A DNA stretch of 53,278 nt from Candidatus Rifleibacteriota bacterium (GTDB lineage: Bacteria; Riflebacteria; Ozemobacteria; Ozemobacterales; Ozemobacteraceae): assembly GCA_029560455.1 (NCBI GenBank), contig JAKQKW010000447.1:1-53278 (forward strand). The letters run 5' to 3'. The notes beneath the pieces were generated by a model. The model worked only from the letters and a program-made list of their open reading frames with translations, made no database searches and was not told where the DNA came from. Below, piece by piece: positions 29,739 to 43,426 of the stretch. Position 1 is the stretch's first letter. The number at the start of each line of letters is the position of its first letter. The position numbers and the translations under genes were made by a program.

Positions 29739-30950
29739 TCAGGCGCGCAGAGATGTGATGGCGCGATGCAAGGCTTCCATGGCCGGCTTAACTTCAGTCT
29801 TGTCGACGGCATAGCTGAGCCTGATATGGTCATGCTGGTCGACAACCGGCACAATATTGCCAAGGGTGCGCGCAAAGGTTGCAGCCAGTTGACTGTTACC
29901 GGCAAGTCCACAACCAACAAGGGTTATCGTGGTGAGGTTGGCAAAGCATTCGACCTCATCGGCATTAAGTCTGGCGGCGTGTTCCCAACAGAAGGGAATA
30001 GCTGAAAAAGCGTCGCTGCGTCTGAAGCCAAGGCGAAAGCTTCCCTTCAACTCGTTATAAGGCTTGAACTGTTGAATCAATGGCTTGAAAGGCTGGTTCT
30101 TCAGGTCTTCAAGCAGAACCGTGTCTGGCTGGCCAACACCGTGTAAGCGCATATAAACAAGCTTACTGTCGCAGGTTATGCTCTTGACCGCGACCTGATC
30201 GTCACCATCTGGGCCAACAACGCTACCTTCGGCATTTGAAAAGCTTGAGCGCACATGAATACGTATCTGGCAGTCGCGGGCGCTTGAAATAGCACGCGGG
30301 TGGAGAATGCCATTGCCAAACTTTGCCAGCATAAGCATTTCATCATAACTGAGATGCCAGACCTTATGTGCATCAGGAATAATGCGTGGATCGGCTGTAT
30401 AAATGCCATCTTCATCGGTATATTTTTCGCAGACCTTCTGACCGAGTTCGCGTGCCAGAATGACGGCGGTGAGGTCAGATCCGCCGCGACCGAGAGTTGT
30501 GAGATCACCGTCGCCGGTAATGCCCTGAAAACCAGCAACTACTGCCACAGTGCCCGGCTCGAGAAACTCAGCCAGCTGTCTGGCCCTTCCGATGCTGACA
30601 ATATTATAGTCTTCTCCCTGCATTTCTGAGAAAAGCTGCAGATTGAAAGCGTTGAAAGAGCGTGAACACACGCCCAGATCTTTGAGAGCTGCGGCGGCAA
30701 GAGAAGCGCTGACCATTTCTCCGGTCGCCATTATATGATCGAGCTCGCGCCTCTCCGGCACTGGTGTAACCTTGCCCATCAGCGAAATCAGGTCATCGGT
30801 GGTATCGCCCATCGCCGACACTACGACAACCATGCGGTGACCGCGCCTGGCCTTTTCGGCAATGCGCTCGGCAACCTTCTTTATGCGCTCGACTGAGCCC
30901 ATAGATGAACCGCCAAACTTTTGTACAAGAACTTCGCCATTGGCAAACAT
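29739..30950 (-). CDS. lysC: Aspartate kinase
   Basis: Phosphorylates aspartate, the first step towards lysine, threonine, methionine and diaminopimelate. The 403-residue length fits the monofunctional family. The motifs are V-Q-K-F-G-G-S-S (8-15), T-L-G-R-G-G-S-D-L-T and Y-T-D-E-D-G-I-Y-T-A-D-P-R. Two C-terminal ACT domains (from about 255) should give feedback control by lysine and/or threonine. It begins 5 bp after the degenerate homoserine dehydrogenase-like gene and is the last gene of the leftward accB operon. It converges closely (17 bp) on the RND gene without a visible terminator. Confidence 0.95.
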   Translation of the reverse strand: MFANGEVLVQKFGGSSMGSVERIKKVAERIAEKARRGHRMVVVVSAMGDTTDDLISLMGKVTPVPERRELDHIMATGEMVSASLAAAALKDLGVCSRSFNAFNLQLFSEMQGEDYNIVSIGRARQLAEFLEPGTVAVVAGFQGITGDGDLTTLGRGGSDLTAVILARELGQKVCEKYTDEDGIYTADPRIIPDAHKVWHLSYDEMLMLAKFGNGILHPRAISSARDCQIRIHVRSSFSNAEGSVVGPDGDDQVAVKSITCDSKLVYMRLHGVGQPDTVLLEDLKNQPFKPLIQQFKPYNELKGSFRLGFRRSDAFSAIPFCWEHAARLNADEVECFANLTTITLVGCGLAGNSQLAATFARTLGNIVPVVDQHDHIRLSYAVDKTEVKPAMEALHRAITSLRA

Positions 30951-30955
30951 GGGTT

Positions 30956-32137
30956 TCAGGCCTGCCTTATGTAACGGAAACAGGCTTTCAGACCTGCCAG
31001 CTTAACATGGCCGGCAATCTGACCGAGCGCTTTTTCAAGACAGTCACGAGTAGTGCGACTGGTGATAAGGATGACCGCGTACCCCGCAGTATCAGAGGTT
31101 TCTCGTGAAACGGCAACGGCAGTCTGATGAATTTTTTCGATCTCTATATCATTGCGATTAAGCATCTGCAGCAGTTGCGCCATGGTATCGGTAAGGTTAA
31201 CGATATTGAAGCGCAGATAAAAATGGTCGGCAAAGGGCTCAATATGGTCAGGAGACGTCAGTTCAGTCGCTTTGATGGGGCATTCATCATAAAGATCAGA
31301 TAAAATACCGCGCACCTGAATTTCGGGTGAAGTGCCTGGGCATGTGTAAGCCTGAGTCAGTCCGTCGGTAGTGCGAACATAGATCATTTCTGAACCGCCA
31401 CGAACCTGAGCCAGAAGATATCTTGTCGGAATCATGCATGGCTCCACAATAGCCATTACTGAGCCTTCCTGATGCCTGGCAATGCCGAGCAGTCTGATTG
31501 AAAAGCCTAATTCTGCAGCAATTCTGACATCGTCGAGAGATAAAGTGCTTATTCCGGCGGTGAATATATCTTCTGGCCGCAGTATACGCCCGAAAATACT
31601 GGCAATCTGTAATACCAGACGATTTCTGCTGACCATTCCATGCAGGTTCTGACTTGGGTTACCACCGGCCAGTTTTTCCCACTGGGCTTCGTGAATCGCC
31701 TGTTCAAGGGTTTTGCCCTCTTTTTCCATGCGCGACAGCACAAAACTGGTGACTGAATCATTCTGCACCATTATCTTCTCAGGCTTTGCAACAGCATATT
31801 CGGAGCAGATTATGCGTTGGAACGGAAAAGTGCCGCCAATGGCGGCACTGTAAAAAGTCTGGCGGTGTTTACCCTCAAGTAGACGCCTGATAGCCAACTC
31901 AGCATCGGTAGTGATGATGTTTTCAGGCAGTTTTTTTACATGGCTGCCACCGACAAAATGAATACCGGTTTGAACAGCAGCAAAAAAGTCACCTGAATCG
32001 AGAGCCATCCATGGTTTCTCGGCATTTTCACGGCCAAGCACCGGAAATTTAAGCGCTTCTTCACGCCCGAGACTGCTGAGAATTTCCTGTAATCGGCGTT
32101 TCCACTCCGGCAGGTTGATGAACCCGGCGCTTTTCAT
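30956..32137 (-). CDS. Homoserine dehydrogenase-like protein lacking catalytic residues, with ACT domain
   Basis: A 393-residue protein clearly related to homoserine dehydrogenase over its middle and C-terminus: F-V-L-S-R-M-E-K-E-G-K-T-L-E-Q-A near 132-147, F-G-R-I-L-R-P-E-D-I near 182-191, and an ACT domain at about 315-390. The N-terminal NADP-binding glycine motif is absent. By my alignment to the Bacillus enzyme, all four key residues have changed: the T-A-N-K lysine is A79, A-E-A-D-P is A-G-G-N-P (157-161), the G-L-D aspartate is V169, and the following lysine is R173. It is probably inactive and may be an amino-acid-sensing partner of LysC. An alternative GTG start lies at 32158. Confidence 0.82.
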   Translation of the reverse strand: MKSAGFINLPEWKRRLQEILSSLGREEALKFPVLGRENAEKPWMALDSGDFFAAVQTGIHFVGGSHVKKLPENIITTDAELAIRRLLEGKHRQTFYSAAIGGTFPFQRIICSEYAVAKPEKIMVQNDSVTSFVLSRMEKEGKTLEQAIHEAQWEKLAGGNPSQNLHGMVSRNRLVLQIASIFGRILRPEDIFTAGISTLSLDDVRIAAELGFSIRLLGIARHQEGSVMAIVEPCMIPTRYLLAQVRGGSEMIYVRTTDGLTQAYTCPGTSPEIQVRGILSDLYDECPIKATELTSPDHIEPFADHFYLRFNIVNLTDTMAQLLQMLNRNDIEIEKIHQTAVAVSRETSDTAGYAVILITSRTTRDCLEKALGQIAGHVKLAGLKACFRYIRQA

Positions 32138-32138
32138 T

Positions 32139-33506
32139 TCAGCCGTGAACTCCTTCACCTGTCGCGTTCTCGACAGCTTCCATGAAGGCTTCGGAAAGGG
32201 TCGGGTGCGGGTGGATCATGCGACTGAAAGCGTGGTGGTCGATTCCGAACTGCGACATCATCGTGGCTTCATTAATGATATTGCTCGCTTCAGGGCCCCA
32301 GATGACTGCGCCGAGAAGTTTGCCATCGTTGCCAATGAGAGTCTTGATCTGCCCATCACCCTCGCCGGCGGTAAGTGCTTTACCATTGGCCGAAAACAGA
32401 CTGCGGCCGGTCTTGTATTCAATGCCCTTTTCTTTCAGGGCATCTTCGCTCTGGCCGACCCAGGCAATTTCGGGGTGCGTGTAAACGCACGACGGAACGA
32501 GTGAATAATCGGCCGCCACTTTTTCACCCTGCCATTGGGCGGCAAGAATCATGGCATCGTAAGAGGCTTTATGAGCAAGCATCGGGCCTTTAATCGCGTC
32601 GCCAATCGCAAACACACCGGGTTCACTGGTCTGGTAATCATCGCCGGTTTTGAGCAGACCACGTTCAGTTTCGATCTGAACATCGGTTTCATGCATAAAA
32701 CTCATATTAACGCGGCGGCCGACAGCGATGAGAACCTTGTCGAATTCGCGCTCGGTGCCATCGATCACTGCGAATGCCCGGCCGTTCTTTTCGGTCAGAG
32801 AATCTACCTTTTTGCCGGTCATGATTTCCATGCCTGATTTTTTAAAAACCGGCAGCAGGCGTTTCGCCGTGGCATTGTCGAGACCCGGCAGAATCTGCGG
32901 CATCATTTCGACTACGCAGACTTTGCTGCCAAATTCAGCGAACACCTGGCCGAGCTCGATACCTATTACACCGCCGCCAACCACAAGAAGGCTCTGCGGA
33001 ACTTCAGCAGTATTGAGCGCTTCGTTGCTTGTCCAGAAAATGCTGCGGTTAGCCGGAAAAACTGCCGGAGCAGCCGGAACAGAACCAACTGCCAGACAGA
33101 TTTTGTTACCCTGAATTGATTCTTCGTAACCGGCAATTTTTATCACACGGTCTTTATAAAGTTTTCCGATGCCTTTGAACAGAGTAACGCCGCTTTTTTC
33201 GAGCATCTTGATGATGCCCTGGCGCAACTGTGCCGTGATTTTATTCTTGCGTTCAAGAACTTTTGACCAGTCAAAACCAGGGTTTTCGCAGCTGAGGCCA
33301 AAATCAGCCGCACTTTTCAGCAGATGATATGTGCGGGAAGAGGCCAGCAGAGCCTTGGTAGGTATGCAGCCCCAGTTGAGACATGTGCCGCCAAATTCAC
33401 TTTCGTTATCGACGATGGCAACTTTCCAGCCTTTGCGGGCCATACGTGCTGCAAGAGGATAACCACCAGGACCGCCGCCAAGAATGATCAGGTCAAAAGT
33501 CTGCAT
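32139..33506 (-). CDS. lpdA: Dihydrolipoyl dehydrogenase (E3)
   Basis: A flavin disulfide reductase of 455 residues that re-oxidises lipoyl groups of 2-oxoacid dehydrogenases or the glycine cleavage system. The FAD-binding G-G-G-P-G-G-Y (10-16), redox cysteines C42 and C47 in G-G-T-C-L-N-W-G-C, the central NAD-binding G-G-G-V-I-G-I-E and the C-terminal active-site H-P-H-P-T-L-S-E are all present. No E1, E2 or glycine-cleavage gene is nearby. It is flanked by accB (2 bp upstream) and the homoserine dehydrogenase-like gene, an unusual operon. GGAG precedes the ATG. Confidence 0.95.
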   Translation of the reverse strand: MQTFDLIILGGGPGGYPLAARMARKGWKVAIVDNESEFGGTCLNWGCIPTKALLASSRTYHLLKSAADFGLSCENPGFDWSKVLERKNKITAQLRQGIIKMLEKSGVTLFKGIGKLYKDRVIKIAGYEESIQGNKICLAVGSVPAAPAVFPANRSIFWTSNEALNTAEVPQSLLVVGGGVIGIELGQVFAEFGSKVCVVEMMPQILPGLDNATAKRLLPVFKKSGMEIMTGKKVDSLTEKNGRAFAVIDGTEREFDKVLIAVGRRVNMSFMHETDVQIETERGLLKTGDDYQTSEPGVFAIGDAIKGPMLAHKASYDAMILAAQWQGEKVAADYSLVPSCVYTHPEIAWVGQSEDALKEKGIEYKTGRSLFSANGKALTAGEGDGQIKTLIGNDGKLLGAVIWGPEASNIINEATMMSQFGIDHHAFSRMIHPHPTLSEAFMEAVENATGEGVHG

Positions 33507-33508
33507 GA

Positions 33509-34042
33509 TTATTCTCCGATACTGATGAGAGCTGCACCCTTTTCTACGGGTTTGCCGTTCTCGATAAGAATTTTTATAACTTTTCCGGCTTTATCAGACT
33601 TTATTTCGTTCATCATCTTCATTGCTTCAACGATGCAGATGGTCTGACCGGCCTTTATCACGTCGCCTTCTTTGATGAATGGCTGTGAATCAGGCGATGG
33701 AGCTCTATAGAAAGTGCCGGTCATAGGTGAAACAACGGTTTTGGCATTATCGACAACAGCTGGTTTTTCGGCTGCCGGTGTTTTTTCTGGCTGCTTTTTG
33801 ATTGCCGGCGCTTCGATATGCATCATTGGCATCGGCATAACTGCAGCCTGGGGCTGAACGACATGATGAGTTGCAACTGAGTGCTTTTTAAGACTGAGTT
33901 TAAGCTCTGAAGTTTCGAGTTCGAGCTCGGCGAGACGATTTTCGCCCATGAATTTTATTATATCTACGACCTGATCGATGACCTGGCCCTGTTTATCTGT
34001 GGTAACCCTGACGGTTTTTTCTTTTGCAACTGCTTTTGGCAT
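33509..34042 (-). CDS. accB: Biotin carboxyl carrier protein of acetyl-CoA carboxylase
   Basis: A 177-residue carrier. An N-terminal helical domain (V-V-D-I-I-K-F-M-G-E-N-R-L-A-E-L-E-L) is followed by a Pro/Ala/Met linker (about 55-100) and a biotinyl domain (about 103-177) with biotin acceptor K142 in E-A-M-K-M. This is the AccB layout, not an oxaloacetate-decarboxylase subunit. The start at 34042 has GGAG 7 bases upstream. A longer reading from 34177 is rejected because a good promoter lies inside that stretch. accC is not adjacent, which is unusual since accB-accC pairs are common. Confidence 0.93.
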   Translation of the reverse strand: MPKAVAKEKTVRVTTDKQGQVIDQVVDIIKFMGENRLAELELETSELKLSLKKHSVATHHVVQPQAAVMPMPMMHIEAPAIKKQPEKTPAAEKPAVVDNAKTVVSPMTGTFYRAPSPDSQPFIKEGDVIKAGQTICIVEAMKMMNEIKSDKAGKVIKILIENGKPVEKGAALISIGE

Positions 34043-34072
34043 TTTTTTCTCCATGGTAGTGAGAGTGAGGCG

Positions 34073-34101
34073 AGTATACCAGATAGGCAAAACATGGGCA
34101 A
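34073..34101 (-). promoter_or_regulatory. Promoter of the accB-lpd-lysC operon
   Basis: On the minus strand, TTGCCC (34096-34101), 17 bases, TATACT (34073-34078). This gives a leader of about 25 bases to the ATG at 34042, and it fixes the accB start downstream of 34073. Confidence 0.6.
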
Positions 34102-34154
34102 TAAGGTATATTTGTGTAAGTGCGGCTTTGTTTTTCGATGTCTGTTTTTGCACA

Positions 34155-34536
34155 TTGGCTATAATTATGTTGTACATAATTAATTAAAAGACATAGTCTT
34201 ATTATTCTTTAGGTTCGGTGGAAACTGTGGAAAACCCGTGTACAACTTTTCAGTTCTTGATTTGCCAATGTGGAAAAGGTTGTTGAAAGCCTTTGAAGTT
34301 TTTCACTGTTTGTTAACATATTTTTTTGTTTGTGGTTTTCCACGATTTTTCCACAGAATTTCCACATGGTTTTCCAGATTATTATCAGAACATTGATGTT
34401 AAAAAACCTTGCGGATAAGGCTTTTGTCTGCTATTATTCAACCATCCCAACAAACGCAGAATAACCCGTTTCACGTGGCTATTGCTTTCTCCGGTTATTT
34501 GAATTTGTTGTACACAAAGTTGTGAGGTCACTGTAC
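34155..34536. other. Probable chromosomal replication origin (oriC)
   Basis: This AT-rich gap lies between accB and dnaA. DnaA-box-like sites (TGTGGAAAA or its complement, one base from the E. coli box) are at 34226-34234, 34269-34277 and 34347-34355, with near-matches at 34336-34344 and 34358-34366. AT-rich stretches at 34155-34205 and near 34315-34335 could unwind. TGTACA occurs four times (34171, 34239, 34509, 34532). A GTTTCACGTG half-match to the parS consensus lies at 34468-34477. Position next to dnaA, dciA and gyrBA supports an origin. Confidence 0.75.
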
Positions 34537-42763: not shown

Positions 42764-42846
42764 GGAGGAATGGCCGAGTGGTCTAAGGCGGCGGTCTTGA
42801 AAACCGCAGGGTGAAAGCTCCGTGGGTTCGAATCCTACTTCCTCCG
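42764..42846 (+). tRNA. tRNA-Ser (anticodon TGA)
   Basis: The cloverleaf folds: a 7-bp acceptor stem, anticodon stem G-C-G-G-T/A-C-C-G-C with loop CTTGAAA, a long class II variable arm and the T loop TTCGAAT. CCA is not encoded. The discriminator is G, as in serine tRNAs. It reads UCA codons, and others of the UCN box by wobble. Confidence 0.95.
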
Positions 42847-42857
42847 ATTGCATCTCT

Positions 42858-42946
42858 GGAGAGATGGGTGAGTGGCTTAAACCAACAGTTTGCTAAACTG
42901 TCGTACTGGGTAACTGGTACCGGGGGTTCAAATCCCCCTCTCTCCG
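42858..42946 (+). tRNA. tRNA-Ser (anticodon GCT)
   Basis: Acceptor GGAGAGA/TCTCTCC, anticodon stem ACAGT/ACTGT with loop TTGCTAA, a long variable arm, T loop TTCAAAT and discriminator G. It reads AGC and AGU. CCA is not encoded. It lies 11 bases after the preceding tRNA. Confidence 0.95.
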
Positions 42947-42956
42947 AAGCGAATTT

Positions 42957-43031
42957 GCGCCCGTAGCTCAGTTTGGATAGAGCACCAGATTGCGGATCTG
43001 GTGGCCAGAGGTTCGAGTCCTCTCGGGCGCG
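42957..43031 (+). tRNA. tRNA-Arg (anticodon GCG)
   Basis: Acceptor GCGCCCG/CGGGCGC, D loop with the arginine-identity A20 context GGATA, anticodon stem CCAGA/TCTGG with loop TTGCGGA, T loop TTCGAGT and discriminator G. The body matches the usual bacterial tRNA-Arg for CGN codons, but position 34 is G where nearly all bacteria have A (edited to inosine by TadA). It would read CGC and CGU directly. Confidence 0.93.
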
Positions 43032-43067
43032 TTGCTTTTTCCTGAGGGTTTTAATTTTCCCTCACCC

Positions 43068-43155
43068 GGAAAGGTGGCTGAGTTGGTCTAAGGCACACGC
43101 CTGGAGAGCGTGAGTGGGGGCAACTCCACCGCGGGTTCGAATCCCGCCCTTTCCG
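43068..43155 (+). tRNA. tRNA-Ser (anticodon GGA)
   Basis: Acceptor GGAAAGG/CCTTTCC, anticodon stem CACGC/GCGTG with loop CTGGAGA, a long variable arm, T loop TTCGAAT and discriminator G. It reads UCC and UCU. The 3' end lies only 2 bases before the SRP RNA, so processing must separate the two. Confidence 0.95.
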
Positions 43156-43157
43156 TT

Positions 43158-43426
43158 GTCGTGCTAGATGGGGGGCTCGGGGTCCCTTATCCACCGCAAA
43201 TCCCCGCCAGGCGGATCGAATCCCTGTCAGAGGGCATTGTTGGTGGCAACGGCCAGTTCTAGAAGCATCGAAGGACGGGTTCCACACGGCGAAAGTCCGT
43301 GAACTCCGCCAGGATCGGAAGGTAGCAACGGTAAACGATCGCTTTCGGGTGATGTGGCAGCGCCTGTCCGGAGCCTATAGTTCAGGATACGTACCATTGA
43401 CGTATGTTCGAAGTCAGGTGCACGAC
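43158..43426 (+). ncRNA. ffs: Signal recognition particle RNA, large type with Alu domain
   Basis: About 269 nt. The 5' GTCGTGC pairs perfectly with GCACGAC at 43420-43426, closing the long helix. The 5' part (GTGCTAGATGGGGGG and CTCGGGGTCCC) matches the Alu-domain fold of Gram-positive-type SRP RNA. The apical Ffh-binding loop is seen as CCAGGATCGGAAGGTAGCAA (43309-43328) with GGCAGCGCCTGTCCGGAG opposite. It targets ribosomes making exported proteins to the membrane with Ffh. Its place just before dnaX is shared with many bacteria. Confidence 0.92.

Follow-up and report, generated by a model that had tools for sequence, protein, structure and literature searches.

A homoserine dehydrogenase-derived pseudoenzyme encoded beside aspartate kinase in Riflebacteria: a candidate regulatory partner of the kinase

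Results

A relative of homoserine dehydrogenase encoded next to lysC

The window, by which we mean the whole 53,278 nt stretch of Candidatus Rifleibacteriota DNA that was analysed, contains a minus-strand gene run in which accB-like and lpd-like genes precede pHom and lysC (Table 1). The initial annotation described pHom as an intact frame lying 5 bp from lysC and descended from homoserine dehydrogenase (HSDH), and we confirm all three points. Translation from an ATG that is conserved among relatives gives a protein of 393 aa, and a GTG further upstream gives a 400-aa ORF. The only Pfam match is PF00742 (E 1.1e-20, residues 135-289 in the numbering of the 400-aa ORF), the predicted structure is a complete three-domain HSDH fold, and the NCBIfam HSDH model PRK06349 scores 121 bits, under its 205-bit cut-off. 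The NAD-binding domain PF03447 does not appear at E<=1, and no other enzyme family in Pfam or NCBIfam matches at that threshold. Monofunctional Hom proteins with a C-terminal ACT domain (PDB 3mtj, S. aureus, B. subtilis; the layout of the B. subtilis protein is described in PMC9728202) are among the best full-length matches in a structural search with the pHom model. They share the three-domain fold with pHom, but differ from it in the cofactor loop and catalytic residues, which pHom has lost, and in the ACT loop, which is changed. An ACT domain had also been claimed for pHom; the predicted model and the structural alignment bear this out, and the assignment rests on them because Pfam gives no ACT score at E<=1. 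An Rfam scan found no element at the pHom operon that reaches the gathering score; the sole matches in the window are four tRNA genes and, close by, a large bacterial SRP RNA (42764-43425, plus strand).

Table 1. Features of the pHom locus, with coordinates in the window
Feature	Coordinates	Strand	Description	Basis
pHom	30956..32137	minus	putative HSDH-derived pseudoenzyme, 393 aa; start ATG at 32137
Former GxGxxG dinucleotide loop of pHom	32102..32125	minus	residues 5-12, now G-[FY]-[LI]-N-L-P-x-W	family alignment
Former TANK motif of pHom	31901..31912	minus	residues 76-79, now TTDA; catalytic Lys gone	family alignment
Former catalytic Glu/Asp/Asp/Lys stretch of pHom	31619..31666	minus	residues 158-173; invariant His166, near-invariant Arg173	family alignment
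C-terminal ACT-like domain of pHom	30959..31231	minus	residues 303-393; altered ligand loop	model, structural alignment, loop columns
lysC	29739..30950	minus	monofunctional aspartate kinase, subtype occurring with pHom	TIGR00657, 276 vs cut-off 208.7
LysC regulatory half	29742..30182	minus	tandem ACT fold, eroded effector motifs	motif counts, alignment
lpd-like gene	32139..33506	minus	dihydrolipoamide dehydrogenase family, 1 bp before pHom ATG	Pyr_redox_2, Pyr_redox_dim
accB-like gene	33509..34177	minus	biotin carboxyl carrier protein, same gene run	translation; named by eye

Cofactor and catalytic residues are lost across the pHom family

Our protein searches list 120 of 123 matches in one case and 120 of 7,670 in another. 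Named members of the pHom family are almost all from Candidatus Riflebacteria/Rifleibacteriota or Ozemobacter(aceae), with one "uncultured bacterium" (P0020). An initial alignment (A1) holds 67 of the 70 first-found family proteins and the window's pHom (P0003, P0063 and P0065 were left out). Residues were counted in an alignment of 123 family sequences (117 distinct), comprising 70 and 32 database proteins, 20 genome loci and the window's own pHom, and compared with 46 intact HSDHs. The glycine-rich cofactor motif, which had been reported missing from the window's protein, is replaced family-wide: residue 8 is N in 120/121 pHom sequences and G in 42/43 intact HSDHs, residue 10 is P in 121/121 and G in 42/42, and residue 12 is W in 114/121 pHom sequences. 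The nicotinamide-side GAG motif is also altered. Since N-L-P-x-W stands in place of GxGxxG throughout the family, NAD(P) chemistry is unlikely for pHom.

The GLD aspartate is a catalytic residue of HSDH, and it is among four replacements in the initial annotation, all of which proved correct: the TANK lysine to Ala79, the AEADP glutamate to Gly158, the GLD aspartate (+11 from that glutamate) to Val169, and the lysine at +15 to Arg173. To these we add a fifth, the aspartate at +6, now Asn164. The TANK lysine occurs in 0/122 pHom sequences vs 45/45 intact HSDHs. All four remaining residues are present in 46/46 intact HSDHs; in the pHom family both aspartates are found in 0/123, the glutamate in 6/123 at a position that has become variable, and the lysine in 2/123, with arginine in the other 121. 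His166 is present in 123/123. The substrate contacts given for P. horikoshii HSDH in PMC4495429 include Lys116, Lys215 and Asp206, and Glu200 of that enzyme is described there as corresponding to yeast Glu208. In our counts, Lys116 stands for the TANK lysine, Glu200 for the glutamate, Asp206 for the aspartate at +6 and Lys215 for the lysine at +15. Of the hallmarks of an active HSDH, PF00742 and the three-domain fold are present in pHom, and GxGxxG/PF03447 and the catalytic residues are absent, a pattern that supports a loss of catalysis.

pHom branches with monofunctional homoserine dehydrogenases

In a tree of 11 pHom representatives and 37 other sequences, the 11 form one clade whose stem measures 2.76 changes per column. 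This clade falls among the monofunctional Homs and not with ThrA (SH-aLRT 91-100 on the relevant branches, by a quick method); the stem is very long and the tree does not settle the exact sister group. Hence an origin from fused ThrA, which we considered, is unsupported, and pHom appears to descend from a monofunctional, ACT-bearing HSDH. The comparison with one half of the fused ThrA protein made in the initial annotation is therefore apt as regards the proposed coupling of a kinase to an HSDH fold, but without support as regards ancestry.

Constraint on pHom has moved rather than gone

Fifty-one alignment columns are at least 90% conserved among the intact HSDHs. The pHom family keeps 8 of these, has switched 6 to a different fixed residue (G8N, G10P, V12W, N127D, K173R and N250E), has relaxed 36 and has deleted 1; 28 further columns are at least 95% conserved in the pHom family, e.g. 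W43, R85, W153 and H166. Conservation is weakest in the ACT domain (mean majority share 0.534 vs 0.602 and 0.606 for the other domains), and its D-x-P-G loop is mostly gone, with variants of N-x-[TN]-[DS]-T at the loop columns instead. The initial annotation had suggested that pHom senses an amino acid; these features leave sensing through the ACT domain without support.

Two checks proposed in the initial annotation, for purifying selection and for disrupted frames in close relatives, point the same way. The reading frame is open in all 20 genomes with pHom. For the twelve closest pairs, dN/dS (Nei-Gojobori) is 0.056-0.168; these pairs are not independent of each other. The closest pair, the G016 and G017 loci, has dN/dS 0.056 at dS 0.59; values for the next eleven (0.088-0.168) are less exact because dS is 0.89-1.88, and among the remaining pairs, where dS is often saturated, dN/dS ranges from 0.08 to 0.31 where defined. 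Taken together, these data support strong purifying selection on pHom. The long stem of the clade, and the fact that pHom changes faster than LysC, might suggest that the gene is decaying and rides along in its operon, but we regard this as extremely improbable given the open frames, the low dN/dS values and the 28 newly conserved columns. On the strength of the family-wide pattern and dN/dS, we rejected frame decay, chance resemblance and recent local mutation.

pHom accompanies one subtype of LysC

We surveyed 39 genomes of the Riflebacteria phylum and read all 20 loci with pHom. (One record that groups with Riflebacteria in the phylum search, L002 from G002, is titled "Erysipelotrichia bacterium".) The initial annotation had drawn attention to a dead enzyme kept beside the kinase of the same pathway, and this arrangement is general: in 20/20 genomes with pHom, a lysC of one subtype comes next on the same strand, at a spacing of 1-20 bp (median 4). 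The two are separate ORFs with a stop between them in every case, unlike the one-chain AK-HSDH proteins. The subtype (at least 341 bits to the window's LysC; the next best scores 230) occurs in 21/39 phylum genomes, 20 of which have pHom, and pHom is missing from the nine genomes in which the best LysC match is an ordinary one (G003-G006, G011, G030, G031, G038 and G039). In the one exception, G007, 353 bp, including Ns, lie between lysC and a contig end; this stretch contains no pHom, and the genome has no PF00742 or pHom-family match anywhere.

The order lpd-pHom-lysC is found in 17/20 pHom genomes and accB-lpd-pHom-lysC in 16/20, the L053 contig ending in lpd. Two genomes (L041, L052) have accB-pHom-lysC with no lpd between, and the L048 contig starts 193 bp before pHom. 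The adjacency of pHom and lysC may thus reflect co-transcription only, accB and lpd being in the same run. In a mirror-tree comparison of the 16/20 genomes in which all four genes are present, plus the window, the partial distance correlation given Lpd is 0.57 for pHom-LysC and 0.55 for pHom-AccB, such that LysC is not singled out.

The regulatory half of the adjoining LysC has lost the motifs DxPG and TS-[DE]-[IV], which we take to be the classical effector motifs of tandem ACT domains in aspartate kinase. All 120 listed LysC relatives have the kinase motif GRGG[ST]D, and the patterns DxPG[VIMT] and [TS]S[DEN][IV][KRT] are present in 0/120, two of the 120 being fragments. Among the nine ordinary Riflebacteria LysC proteins, the TS-type pattern is found in 7/9 and the DxPG pattern in 5/9; L084 has neither and L079 is truncated.

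The pHom-lysC pair appears to track the lysine branch

PF00742 matches were found in 32/39 phylum genomes. The second, intact hom gene that the initial annotation said should be looked for exists in most but not all pHom genomes: 14/20 have another PF00742 protein, of ThrA type, and six have none. A separate intact HSDH is known from phylum relatives of the window's genome, rather than from that genome itself. The catalytic stretch and a TPNK motif are intact at all 14 ThrA-type loci, and the frame is 698-859 aa long in 12 of them and shorter, cut or interrupted in G009 (478 aa) and G026 (380 aa). Because these ThrA-type proteins have intact motifs, pHom is not needed for homoserine in the 14 genomes. 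A thrB match above the cut-off is present in 12/14 (G019 is just below it, and in G022 thrB was not found as such), and thrB and thrC share a contig with thrA in 10/14, counting the thrB of G019.

In the other six pHom genomes (G010, G015-G018 and G020), pHom is the only PF00742 protein. None of these has thrB over the cut-off (best 59 bits, cut-off 168, a threshold that also misses 3/14 control genomes), and all six have dapB (E 1.6e-28 or better), suggesting that the pHom-lysC pair tracks the lysine/DAP branch, as far as can be judged from drafts of unstated completeness. A strong dapB match is found in 18/20 pHom genomes overall, the exceptions being the ThrA-bearing G022 and G026. As to other users of homoserine, MetA (PF04204) is absent from all 39 phylum genomes, and a MetX-like protein, possibly homoserine-using, is found in G015, G018 and G020, with the model cut-off being passed by no genome and by none of 14 controls. 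G010, G016 and G017 lack a MetX-like match; in these three drafts, searches for the homoserine-using families ThrB, MetX and MetA found nothing, though the pHom-lysC pair is kept.

These genomes bear on whether pHom might still be a working HSDH with unorthodox residues. In its favour, pHom is the sole PF00742 protein of six genomes, three of which have a MetX-like protein and five a thrC-type protein, and an arginine stands in for a catalytic lysine in 121/123 family members. Nonetheless, the catalytic lysines and aspartates (two of each), along with the glycine-rich loop and GAG motif, have been lost or altered, thrB over the cut-off is missing from those six genomes, three of which also lack MetX-like and MetA matches, and fourteen genomes possess a ThrA-type HSDH as well; we consider residual HSDH activity very unlikely.

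The thrC-type proteins of G015-G018 and G020 score ~190-230 bits, similar proteins occur in many phylum genomes, and they may not necessarily be threonine synthases. Separately, G004, G005 and G006 (L082-L084) have no PF00742 match and encode a ThrB-like GHMP kinase directly beside an ordinary lysC (G004 C117 4309-6521; G005 C1 211233-213313; G006 C119 13834-15911). These kinases score 140, 151 and 47 bits, respectively, all below the thrB cut-off; either HSDH is missing from these drafts or another enzyme supplies homoserine.

Discussion

Sequence comparisons indicate that pHom is a real, selected and lineage-wide protein. We propose that it is probably a regulatory or activating partner subunit of the lysine-branch LysC, acting as HisZ does with HisGS. 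According to this proposal, after losing the ability to bind cofactor and to catalyse the reaction, pHom persisted as a dedicated partner of the LysC encoded directly downstream. The two proteins would be made from a single transcript, pHom would dock on the eroded tandem-ACT half of LysC, and it would set LysC activity, either by activating the kinase or by rendering it responsive to a product of the pathway. An effector, for which lysine or a different DAP-branch signal is the likeliest identity, would bind to pHom. The remodelled cofactor/active-site cleft is the most plausible site and the ACT domain a possible one; the cleft is the better candidate because the ACT loop has been exchanged and conservation is lowest in that domain, and because the new fixed residues include some at old cofactor-loop and active-site positions. 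By analogy, pHom would supply the control lost by the ACT pair of LysC. The partnership is indirectly supported by gene adjacency, by the matched presence and absence of the two genes (with one exception) and by the loss of effector motifs from LysC; the single transcript, the pHom-LysC complex, the direction of its effect, and the effector and its site are inferred.

HisGS lacks the regulatory domain of long-form ATP phosphoribosyltransferase. HisZ, itself without catalytic power, is described as activating HisGS and holding the histidine pocket, with HisGS alone being insensitive to histidine, and reference titles in the same article identify HisZ as a tRNA synthetase paralogue (PMC9734150). 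pHom follows the same pattern in being an enzyme homologue that has lost its catalytic residues, is constrained, and is encoded beside a putative partner. In both systems a catalytically dead protein would control the first enzyme of a pathway. The two differ in that pHom derives from an enzyme of the same pathway, that its partner would be aspartate kinase, and that for pHom-LysC the control, complex and effector are proposed from comparative data. As in ThrA and MetL, a kinase and an HSDH fold would be coupled in one functional unit, but pHom is a protein in its own right, lacks the catalytic residues, branches with monofunctional Hom, and coexists with a ThrA-type HSDH in 14/20 genomes. By contrast, no whole-protein descent shared with pHom is indicated for IlvH/IlvN, the regulatory subunits of acetohydroxyacid synthase, and IlvH is not a dead enzyme. 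Aspartate kinases that work with a second chain occur in Corynebacterium glutamicum and Pyrococcus (TIGR02078, presumably, from the model name, the paired subunit of the latter), where the second chains derive from the kinase itself, as pieces or paralogues, and not from HSDH. The C. glutamicum enzyme is described in a review as an alpha2beta2 heterotetramer (PMC10464499).

We considered two further explanations. First, pHom could be a new enzyme whose cleft was remade to take a different substrate, one in or close to the aspartate pathway, with LysC simply feeding the same route; in favour of this are new polar and aromatic residues, invariant or nearly so (N8, P10, W12, D127, H166 and R173), at the old cofactor and active-site positions. 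We consider this unlikely, since the N-L-P-x-W loop argues against NAD(P) chemistry, no other enzyme family is matched in Pfam or NCBIfam at E<=1, and the loss of effector motifs from the adjoining LysC would be unexplained. Second, pHom could be a purely structural or folding partner that affects the stability or oligomer state of a LysC that has lost feedback control, with no small-molecule sensing. The changed ACT loop and weaker ACT conservation of pHom, and the missing effector motifs of LysC, are consistent with this, but fixed new residues at old ligand-binding positions would be odd for a scaffold, and we rate this explanation as improbable as the first.

Returning to the proposal of a regulatory or activating subunit, a more specific version is that aspartate kinase feedback has been outsourced: the ACT sites of LysC decayed, with ACT1 lost altogether in some species, the effector binds in the gutted HSDH cleft, and pHom is an obligate regulatory subunit. 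We put this forward tentatively, as a possibility less likely to be right than wrong; if true, it would be a second, independent instance of the HisZ arrangement, here built from an enzyme that belongs to the same pathway.

How might pHom have arisen? In the outgroup genome G038 (contig C206), an intact hom heads the run hom-thrC-thrB-lysC. We hypothesize that, once the genome had a fused thrA-thrB-thrC operon, the thr genes left a run of this kind; the hom left behind would then have decayed as an enzyme while keeping a role beside lysC.

Aspartate kinase starts the pathway of amino-acid synthesis involved, and the setting is a little-studied bacterial phylum. If our proposal is correct, a lineage-wide regulatory pseudoenzyme is added to one of the best-studied metabolic branch points, and allosteric control can shift away from the ACT domains of a kinase and onto a dead enzyme of its pathway. 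Among the open-licence papers listed by literature searches, none has a title or abstract opening that deals with pHom, and no open-licence paper was found that pairs homoserine dehydrogenase with a pseudoenzyme. Several pHom proteins carry the public name homoserine dehydrogenase, such that pathway reconstructions for Riflebacteria would wrongly credit genomes in which pHom stands alone with homoserine synthesis.

Loss of sites from LysC may extend to loss of a domain. In an alignment (A2) of the window's LysC with 78 of its 120 listed relatives, ACT1 is missing from the LysC proteins of L042 and L043; these are short (314-342 aa), as are eight of the 120 relatives. The series of species from full-length, eroded LysC to LysC without ACT1 makes the order of events testable. 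In the short aspartate kinases P0229, P0236, P0237, P0239, P0240, P0243, P0252 and P0262, ACT1 is apparently gone and an ACT2-like end is kept, and the LysC proteins of L042 and L043 likewise retain an ACT2-like end.
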